Below, piece after piece: positions 2,236 to 5,287 of a stretch of DNA of 64,000 nucleotides (its first letter is position 1; each line of letters opens with the position of its first letter). Made by a program: the position numbers and the translations under genes. The stretch comes from an uncultured Bacteroidota bacterium (lineage in GTDB: Bacteria > Bacteroidota > Bacteroidia > NS11-12g > UBA9320). The stretch lies in the NCBI GenBank assembly GCA_913043145.1, contig CAJWLP010000004.1:1-64000 (forward strand). The letters run 5' to 3'. The notes under the pieces were generated by a model. The model did no database searches, was not told where the DNA came from, and was given only the letters and a program-made list of their open reading frames with translations.

Positions 2236-3255
2236 ATGAAAAAAGTTACAGCAATCCTTTTACTTTTCACATGTGCTTTTTCATCTGCACAAATCCCCCA
2301 AGAAATCACTTATAATGGTATCAAACGGAGTTTTATTTATTACACTCCATCTTCTTGGTCAGAGTCTGAGCCTATGCCACTCCTTATTGTTCTTCATGGA
2401 CTAACTCAAGTCGGTAAAGGCATTATGGACTTTTCAGGATTTAATGATATAGCAGAAGATAACAACTTTGTAGTGTGTTATCCCGATGGTTTAAATCGGA
2501 CTTGGAATGCAAATATGAATGTTTCGATATCTCAAGCTGATGACATTGGATTTATTGAAGAAATTACGCTCATCATGCAGAAAAAACTAAATACAAATCC
2601 TAGTAAACAATACTTGTGTGGAATATCCAATGGGGCGTTTATGAGTCATAAACTTGCATGTGAATCAAGTCAATGCTTTGCTGGGATTGCTACGATTGCC
2701 GGAACTATGAGCGATACTGTATTCAAAAATTGTAACCCGACACACACCAACAATATACTTCATATTCATGGAACTGCCGATGCTATTGTCAATTATAACG
2801 GATCTTCAACAACAGGGGTATCTGTTGACCAACTTATGAAGAAGTGGCGATCGTATTTAAATTGTGATTTAAACCCACAAAAAGAGGATATGCCTAACCC
2901 GAATCGATTGGATTTGTCTTATCCTGAACGCTATACTTACACCAATTGCAAAAACGGAACACTCGAACATATAAAAATAGTAGGTGGTGGTCATCAATGG
3001 CCCGGAATAATTGGTCTACTAGGTGGTGTCGGAACGATCAATATGGATTTCTATTCCCCACAATTAATCTGGGACTTCCTAAAAGATAAGTCATGCAACC
3101 AAACTTCTTCCATTGATGAGTTAAAAGTCAACAATACTAAATCAATCATTAAAATTACCGATTTGTTAGGTAGAAAAGTCAATATAAATTTAAATGTACC
3201 CCTCATTTATTTTTACGATGATGGAAGTGTCGAACGTAAATTTCAATTGAATTAA
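2236..3255 (+). CDS. Secreted PHB-depolymerase/LpqC-type esterase
   Basis: A 339-residue alpha/beta hydrolase with a Sec signal peptide (residues 1-19, cut after S-S-A-Q). The core runs from about residue 25 to 290. It shows L-H-G-L (oxyanion region, residues 53-56), the nucleophile motif G-I-S-N-G with Ser131, H-G-T-A-D with probable catalytic Asp182, and G-G-G-H-Q-W-P-G with His253. This is the arrangement of PHB depolymerase and feruloyl-esterase-like family CE1 enzymes. The last 40 residues resemble a shortened T9SS-type tail (K-I-T-D-L-L-G-R-K-V, then F-Y-D-D-G-S-V-E-R-K-F), so export through T9SS is possible but uncertain. The substrate is unknown. It converges with the DUF457-GH16 gene. 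Confidence 0.8.
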   Translation: MKKVTAILLLFTCAFSSAQIPQEITYNGIKRSFIYYTPSSWSESEPMPLLIVLHGLTQVGKGIMDFSGFNDIAEDNNFVVCYPDGLNRTWNANMNVSISQADDIGFIEEITLIMQKKLNTNPSKQYLCGISNGAFMSHKLACESSQCFAGIATIAGTMSDTVFKNCNPTHTNNILHIHGTADAIVNYNGSSTTGVSVDQLMKKWRSYLNCDLNPQKEDMPNPNRLDLSYPERYTYTNCKNGTLEHIKIVGGGHQWPGIIGLLGGVGTINMDFYSPQLIWDFLKDKSCNQTSSIDELKVNNTKSIIKITDLLGRKVNINLNVPLIYFYDDGSVERKFQLN

Positions 3256-3286: not shown

Positions 3287-5287
3287 CTAATTATATACTC
3301 GTACATAATCAATTTCAATAGCATCAGAAATAAAATTGGGGTCAATTAATGGTTCAATTGCAAAATTCAATAATAAATATTGTTCTGAGGTATATGGCCA
3401 AGTCTCTTCATTTTTAAACGTTGGCTGATAGGTGTAGTGAACCACATCATCAATCATAAATACCAGTTTTTCTTCTGACCAATCTAACGAATAGATATGG
3501 AATTCTGATGAGCAGGTAGGTATGAGCCTTCCTCCTTGATTAATAGTTTCTCCATGACTGTATGGTGTATGGGTGGCACTTTTTACCAAATTTTGTTCCC
3601 TTCCCCAATGTTCCATAATATCAATTTCACCACAAGCTGGCCAAGGTGTATTACCAAAACCTTTTTTTTGCCAATATGCCCCATCTTCACTTATGTTTTT
3701 ACCTAGTGTCCAAAAGGCTGGCCAGGTACCTCTTCCGGAAGGTAGTTTAGCCCTAATATCTACACGACCATATTTAAATGCAATTTTAGAATTTAGTCTT
3801 GCTGATGTATATTCTTTTGTTTGACCTTGGTCTGTAAAAGTTTCTTTGATAGCAACAATCTTCAATATACCATTTTCAACAAATGAATTATCGATGCGAT
3901 TTGTATAATGTTGAACTTCATTATTATACCAACTGCCCCCAGAGGGTAATTTTGTCTGATGAAACCACTTAAGGGAATCTACAGGACCGTTCTTATCAAA
4001 TTCGTCTGACCATATAAGCTCACGAGTTTTTGCTGCATGATTTACTGTATCTATTGGTTGAAATAGTTGAGAATGATTCATTGAATCTATACCCATGACT
4101 CGCTTAATTAAAAATGGAAACATGTTCTTTCTTAGGTCTTCAGGTGGACCACTTTGAACTTCGTTTAACACATAAAATCCATCTTCTTCATTAATCATAA
4201 ACCGAAAGAAATAGTCATCAGGCCCCGTGCCTTTTCCTGAAAATGATCCAAACCTTAAGTCACTGAATTGGTATTCGTCCCCCATATCATGCACCGTAAA
4301 AAATCCATCGCTAAACCACTGTAATGTCTGAAGCGTTTTATTTCTCTCATAATTTTTTAGCAAATTATGATTCTTATCAATCTTTGAAAAAGTTATATCT
4401 TTTTCATCAAATAAAGAATACTGAGATAGATAATAGTGGTCCTTTGTTTCCCCGGTATAATTCCATAAGATATTAGTCAAAATAGATGGATTTGTTATAA
4501 ATCGCTCAATTTGAGTACCTTGATTTTTAATAGATTCTGCAAATAATTGATTGATTCGATTCTTATTAAATACCGTAAATAATAAGTACGCTGAACTAAA
4601 AACAATTCCGATATAATTCCAATGCCTACGACGAGGAGATTGAAAGGGTATTCTTGATGCAATGATTAAGCATACCAAAAAGGGAACCGTATAAAGAGGA
4701 TCTGCAACAGAAATTGTACTCCAGGCAACACGTATATCAGAAAAAGGAAGAAATAACTGCGTACCATACATAGTAAAACAGTCCAACAATGGGTGAGTAA
4801 TAAGAGCCCAGAAGAACAACCATTGCCAATCACGAATAGTTGCATTTGGAGGAGTCCATCCATTACTAAAATAGCTGTTTTTAATGTTTAAATAACCCAA
4901 CAATACTAACCCAAAAGAGGCTATTATTAGTGGTATAAAATTATCAGGATAAAGACGTGAAAAGACAAATTGTAATGCTGAAATAATTAAAATAACTGCT
5001 AGTGATTTTGAGCTAATTGCTATCCATTTATGACTGCTACTAGTATAAATTTGATTCACTAACCACCCAAATAAAAAAGCCCCAAGAACACAAAACAAAA
5101 TAGAATGACTAAACCCCCTATGGAAGGCAACATTGTCAATCTCAGATAAAAAAAGACCACCTAAAACATCTAAATCTGGGATGGTCCCTCCAACAGCACC
5201 CCACAACATCGCTCTGTTCCCAATTTTTTTACCGAGAGTAACTTCTCCAACAGCAGCACCTAAAACAATTTGTGTTAATGAATCCAT
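3287..5287 (-). CDS. DUF457/YdjM-type membrane protein fused to GH16 glucanase
   Basis: One uninterrupted 666-residue frame holds two normally separate proteins. Residues 1-400 are a YdjM/YbcI (DUF457) metal-dependent hydrolase-like membrane protein. It has I-P-D-L-D at 36-40, H-R-G-F-S-H-S at 56-62, H-P-L-L-D at 165-169, about seven membrane segments to residue 241, and then a soluble tail. Residues 420-666 are a full-length glycoside hydrolase family 16 domain with W-S-D-E-F at 426-430 and the catalytic G-E-I-D-I-M-E-H at 553-560 (Glu554, Asp556, Glu559). GH16 enzymes of this type cut beta-1,3 or mixed glucans such as laminarin. The Arg-rich loop at 212-222 should be cytoplasmic by the positive-inside rule, which would put the GH16 part in the periplasm. 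No signal peptide or start separates the halves. Confidence 0.85.
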   Translation of the reverse strand: MDSLTQIVLGAAVGEVTLGKKIGNRAMLWGAVGGTIPDLDVLGGLFLSEIDNVAFHRGFSHSILFCVLGAFLFGWLVNQIYTSSSHKWIAISSKSLAVILIISALQFVFSRLYPDNFIPLIIASFGLVLLGYLNIKNSYFSNGWTPPNATIRDWQWLFFWALITHPLLDCFTMYGTQLFLPFSDIRVAWSTISVADPLYTVPFLVCLIIASRIPFQSPRRRHWNYIGIVFSSAYLLFTVFNKNRINQLFAESIKNQGTQIERFITNPSILTNILWNYTGETKDHYYLSQYSLFDEKDITFSKIDKNHNLLKNYERNKTLQTLQWFSDGFFTVHDMGDEYQFSDLRFGSFSGKGTGPDDYFFRFMINEEDGFYVLNEVQSGPPEDLRKNMFPFLIKRVMGIDSMNHSQLFQPIDTVNHAAKTRELIWSDEFDKNGPVDSLKWFHQTKLPSGGSWYNNEVQHYTNRIDNSFVENGILKIVAIKETFTDQGQTKEYTSARLNSKIAFKYGRVDIRAKLPSGRGTWPAFWTLGKNISEDGAYWQKKGFGNTPWPACGEIDIMEHWGREQNLVKSATHTPYSHGETINQGGRLIPTCSSEFHIYSLDWSEEKLVFMIDDVVHYTYQPTFKNEETWPYTSEQYLLLNFAIEPLIDPNFISDAIEIDYVRVYN

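Follow-up and report, generated by a model that had tools for sequence, protein, structure and literature searches.

A YdjM-family membrane protein fused to a GH16 laminarinase domain in part of one genus of Bacteroidota

The window, that is, the whole stretch of 64,000 nucleotides analyzed here, carries on its reverse strand a single open reading frame of 666 amino acids, with an ATG start and zero internal stops, in which a complete YdjM protein, a linker of about 20 amino acids and a complete GH16 domain follow one another (Table 1). The preliminary description had proposed a single frame joining DUF457/YdjM to GH16, and the reading frame, the Pfam domains and a match to the laminarinase ZgLamA all bear this out, so that a real fusion is confirmed. 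We infer topology, activity, substrate and role: on balance, the product is probably a laminarinase that an inner-membrane tether holds in the periplasm, where it would act on imported beta-1,3-glucan.

Table 1. Features of the fusion gene in the window, and intact copies in other genomes of the genus
Feature	Position or contig	Strand	Basis or remark
ydjM-GH16 fusion gene, 666 aa + stop	3287..5287	-	ORF, Pfam, orthologues
YdjM membrane domain, residues 1-244, 8 predicted helices (last to 255)	4556..5287	-	PF04307 and AF2
Invariant polar group 1 (D38, D40, H56, R57, H61), putative metal/active site	5105..5176	-	32 unfused homologues; all 4 fusions
Invariant group 2 (H165, D169, D196), putative metal/active site	4700..4795	-	conservation
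YdjM C-terminal beta domain, residues ~256-399, predicted periplasmic	4091..4522	-	AF2
Linker, residues ~400-420, hypervariable	4028..4090	-	starts where unfused YdjM stops (RIRGI-stop, G028)
GH16 laminarinase domain, residues 421-666	3290..4027	-	Pfam, ZgLamA match, alignment; without T9SS tail
Catalytic motif E554-I-D556-I-M-E559	3611..3628	-	alignment to ZgLamA
Intact fusion in G025	JAQWZS010000007		88% identity
Intact fusion in G018	JADHMR010000035		77% identity
Intact fusion in G026	CAJXBI010000021		75% identity

The source genome (G000) is a fragmented MAG (1.70 Mb, 86 contigs, 80% complete), a state that would favor an assembly or frameshift artefact in which two genes became joined at residues ~400-421 (window ~4027-4090). 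However, intact in-frame fusions with the same junction are found in three more genomes of the genus, independently assembled and showing 75-88% protein identity (contigs in Table 1). An artefact is thus ruled out with next to no residual doubt, which also settles the concern about an assembly join raised in the preliminary description. Moreover, a contig of G021 opens within the gene, at residue 226, and continues across the join; the G022 contig begins only at residue 425, and the fusion state of that copy is taken from the tree. The fusion genomes are syntenic as far as the contigs reach, with a SOUL gene on one side and, on the other, a 145-aa membrane protein followed by a thioesterase, beyond which lies a ComM-like gene except in G026. 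Between SOUL and the fusion, the window also bears a secreted-looking esterase (Abhydrolase_2/Esterase, 2236-3255), which adjoins the fusion in G000 and G025 only and not in G018 or G026. The fusion lies outside any polysaccharide utilization locus, its neighbors being the SOUL, esterase, ComM-like and thioesterase genes.

Pfam YdjM (PF04307) matches residues 1-244 (E=3e-35, 121.6 bits against a cut-off of 29, profile positions 1-175 of 176). The conserved D and H residues of the family (D38, D40, H56, H61, H165, D169 and D196) are all present, and all 36 columns conserved across 32 unfused YdjM proteins are retained in the four intact fusions. The fusion thus has these residues in common with the YdjM/DUF457 inner-membrane proteins (E. 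coli YdjM and the 340-400 aa forms of Bacteroidia), which in contrast are unfused in every other genome sampled. A seven-helix YdjM had been described over residues 1-400; the family assignment stands, but the layout has to be revised. For residues 1-413, AF2 (mean pLDDT 88.7, pTM 0.82) gives eight helices (2-22, 24-45, 63-82, 86-112, 118-140, 151-169, 197-211 and 218-255), the Pfam match stops at 244, and a separate beta domain takes up residues ~256-400 (strands 262-379 and a helix at 383-397, mostly pLDDT ~90). An AF2 model of the entire protein is poor at 258-420, a stretch over which the YdjM rows of its alignment were truncated. The helix pair at residues 86-140 (window 4868-5032) is an extra one found in Saprospiraceae-type YdjM and absent from the ~340-aa forms. 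The earlier label "metal-dependent hydrolase" turns out to be annotation only: a fold search with the YdjM half gave no significant match among solved proteins, our literature searches found no supporting biochemistry, and the metal-dependent hydrolase (phospholipase-like) activity of YdjM is a prediction in the literature (PMC11442139).

In the other half, Pfam Glyco_hydro_16 is found at residues 490-633 (E=1.5e-19), and the sequence of ZgLamA, the GH16 laminarinase of Zobellia galactanivorans (PDB 4bq1/4bow), matches full-length over residues 417-665 (4bq1, E=2e-70; 46-48% identity). The beta-jelly roll and the ExDxxE motif of GH16 laminarinases are both present, and the GH16 model resembles the ZgLamA structure. 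The catalytic motif GEIDIMEHWG runs from residue 553, with E554, D556 and E559 aligned to ZgLamA E269, D271 and E274, as expected from the initial report of a complete set of catalytic acids, and the triad is kept in the fusions. ZgLamA differs in having no membrane protein attached. The fusion also has the extra ZgLamA-type loop, but among the loop residues linked to laminarin binding in ZgLamA (H170, E250 and E263; PMC5595797) only E250 is matched (E534), with Y454 in place of H170 and P548 in place of E263. Because two of the three named residues differ, laminarin specificity is not certain; from homology we infer a beta-glucan substrate, which may or may not be laminarin. Among related GH16 sequences, a Pseudomonadales MAG encodes a 1588-aa protein of CBM6, GH16, Ig-like and CotH domains (L046 1022-5788) whose GH16 is 64% identical to that of the window, and a similar GH16 at L086 (G040 C1:1473000-1476500) appears split in two frames (1105-1533 and 1500-2009), likely by a frameshift.

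The two halves can be traced to separate sources. The six fusion domains are monophyletic in the GH16 tree (100/99) and fall within a group of laminarinases of ~540 aa (530-550 aa); in each of the three such laminarinases checked with Pfam, a T9SS Por_Secre_tail comes after GH16. The laminarinases of this length from the same order (e.g. L013 and L012) are 60-67% identical in GH16 and represent the source family; unlike the fusion they are secreted, with an N-terminal signal-like region and an extra domain before GH16 and the Por_Secre_tail after it. The signal peptide and tail of T9SS-secreted laminarinases are missing from the fusion, whose frame opens with YdjM and stops at the GH16 boundary, and Pfam gives no Por_Secre_tail match in the protein. 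On the YdjM side, G028, of the same genus, carries a 400-aa YdjM gene alone at the syntenic locus between ComM-like and SOUL, ending RIRGI-stop, 66% identical to fusion residues 1-400 and with no GH16 adjoining. In the YdjM tree the fusions are monophyletic (100/95) and sister to G028 (100/100), and together they are nested in Saprospiraceae-type YdjM, apart from the ~380-aa YdjM that other members of the genus carry. The join retains the whole YdjM, adds ~20 variable residues and takes in GH16 from first to last residue; what flanks GH16 in the source family, an N-terminal region and a T9SS tail, is lost. The trees show a single origin of the fusion, in a common ancestor of some members of the genus, with T9SS-tailed laminarinases as the source of GH16 and the unfused 400-aa form as that of YdjM.

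No YdjM frame longer than ~420 aa other than the window's own was listed in a PF04307 survey of 395 Bacteroidia genomes. In 396 genomes of the phylum and a pattern scan of ~85,000 species, which picks up close relatives only, the matches outside the genus were to single halves. No further YdjM-GH16 case was found among ~900 Bacteroidota genomes, and literature searches returned no YdjM-GH fusion.

The loops richest in positive charge are 19-27 (3 K/R; K20K21..R25) and 208-221 (4 K/R; R212...R219R220R221). If both are inside, as the positive-inside rule would have it, the N-terminus, both invariant groups, the beta domain and GH16 lie outside, in the periplasm. The absence of the helix pair 86-140 from the ~340-aa members fits this topology, since an even number of helices leaves the remainder unchanged. 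The preliminary description had placed GH16 in the periplasm from the Arg-rich loop before the last helix; that loop holds in the predicted topology, but several other loops carry few charges and agree only weakly with it, and K242 and R244 directly after helix 8 weaken the call of a periplasmic C-terminus. On the AF2 model and the charge counts, the active-site-like residues of YdjM, its C-terminal beta domain and GH16 are all predicted to be periplasmic. A Met occurs at the join in all four intact copies (RVMGIDS/RIMGIDS), as would be needed if translation of a separate GH16 protein began internally, near residues 398-405. However, such a product would have no export signal of any kind and the Met falls within the R-I-x-G motif of the YdjM C-terminus, whereas a GH16 facing the cytoplasm would go against the charge distribution, which favors the C-terminus outside. 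Both variants are therefore highly improbable.

Pairwise dN/dS is 0.03-0.07 for GH16. In the YdjM half it is 0.12-0.18 for the membrane part and 0.08-0.16 for the C-terminal domain, whereas the 20-residue linker has higher values, 0.3-1.3; the ratios are rough for some distant pairs in which synonymous distances are saturated. The low ratios, together with the 36 of 36 conserved YdjM columns kept, suggest that both halves are functional, and the comparison shows both to be under purifying selection. Whether their functions are coupled is a separate question. It is a real possibility, though not the one we would expect, that YdjM serves as a mere anchor while keeping its ancestral envelope role, the jobs of the two halves being unrelated; this is compatible with a tethered glucanase and dispenses with coupling. 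The fusion is the sole full-length YdjM found in G000, G018, G025 and G026, and thus YdjM probably keeps its own role; the linker is free to vary and the gene neighborhood is unrelated to sugars. On the other hand, the join has been long retained across 75-88% identity, and no re-split descendant was seen. Prediction puts the two putative active sites on one side of the membrane, and selection preserves both halves, which would also suit a bifunctional enzyme whose YdjM hydrolase and glucanase share one substrate, such as a glucan-bearing lipid or another envelope glycoconjugate. We regard this as unlikely, because YdjM has no known substrate, the fusion is confined to one clade whereas unfused YdjM is widespread, and the ancestor of the GH16 half was an ordinary secreted laminarinase. 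It is equally doubtful that YdjM handles a glycan-linked envelope substrate and is here permanently coupled to a glucanase preparing or trimming that substrate; if it were so, the fusion would reveal what YdjM does.

The laminarin context of the source genome is consistent with the preferred reading of a tethered periplasmic laminarinase. Contig C5 carries SusC, SusD, a PKD protein, a second GH16, a GH3, a sodium:solute symporter (SSF) and a NUDIX/NrtR-type regulator, and this SusCD-GH16-GH3-symporter arrangement resembles laminarin loci. A second SusC/SusD-like locus lies on contig C51 (L108), its GH16 frame cut at the contig end. Imported laminarin oligomers are cleaved by periplasmic GH3 (PMC11345257), and periplasmic laminarinases have been described (PMC6246565). 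We propose that a YdjM-family inner-membrane protein and the catalytic domain of a T9SS-type laminarinase that had once been secreted were joined a single time. YdjM would span the inner membrane, expose its C-terminal beta domain on the outer side and substitute for the signal peptide as an export device, leaving GH16 tethered to the periplasmic face. There GH16 may cut internally the beta-1,3-glucan oligomers that SusC/D bring in, alongside the inner-membrane transporters and periplasmic GH3; such an endo-laminarinase would fit between import and GH3. Counting against this reading are the position of the gene outside a polysaccharide utilization locus, the two exchanged loop residues, the sparse charges of several loops and the failure to find GH17 in five of the six fusion genomes (see below).

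The preliminary description knew of no standard architecture of this kind, but a published parallel exists: MFS transporters that end in a GH17 laminarinase are described as common among marine Flavobacteriia (PMC6246565). Formosa FbGH17b (FORMB_24740) resembles the fusion in being an inner-membrane protein with a C-terminal laminarinase from marine Bacteroidota, and coupling of cleavage and transport at the inner membrane has been proposed for it (PMC6246565). It differs in having a sugar transporter instead of YdjM and another GH family, in sitting in a laminarin locus and in its independent origin. Pfam identifies the membrane part of the fusion as YdjM and not MFS, and it works like the MFS transporter at most as an anchor. 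The parallel is found even in the same genus: G030, which lacks the fusion, encodes a 781-aa MFS-GH17 (L112 2123-4468, checked with Pfam), and its locus also holds GH17 and GH30. Further unfused members of the genus have GH17 frames of 783-846 aa, on G016 C45 and G019 C1. GH17 was not found in five of the six fusion genomes (G000, G021, G022, G025 and G026), and their laminarin pathway thus looks smaller than that of their relatives. We also considered that the fusion had simply taken the place of GH17, but gave up this idea, since G018 has both, and G013, G028 and G029 have neither.

The kind of fusion is therefore already known; what is new here is the anchor, the GH family and the independent origin. 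Gene fusion has moved a laminarinase from the cell exterior to the inner membrane, where it is predicted to face the periplasm, a second, independent case beside the MFS-GH17 fusion. Taken together, the two suggest that marine Bacteroidota have adapted repeatedly by attaching enzymes for beta-1,3-glucan to the inner membrane, and the fusion may also give a lead on the function of YdjM.
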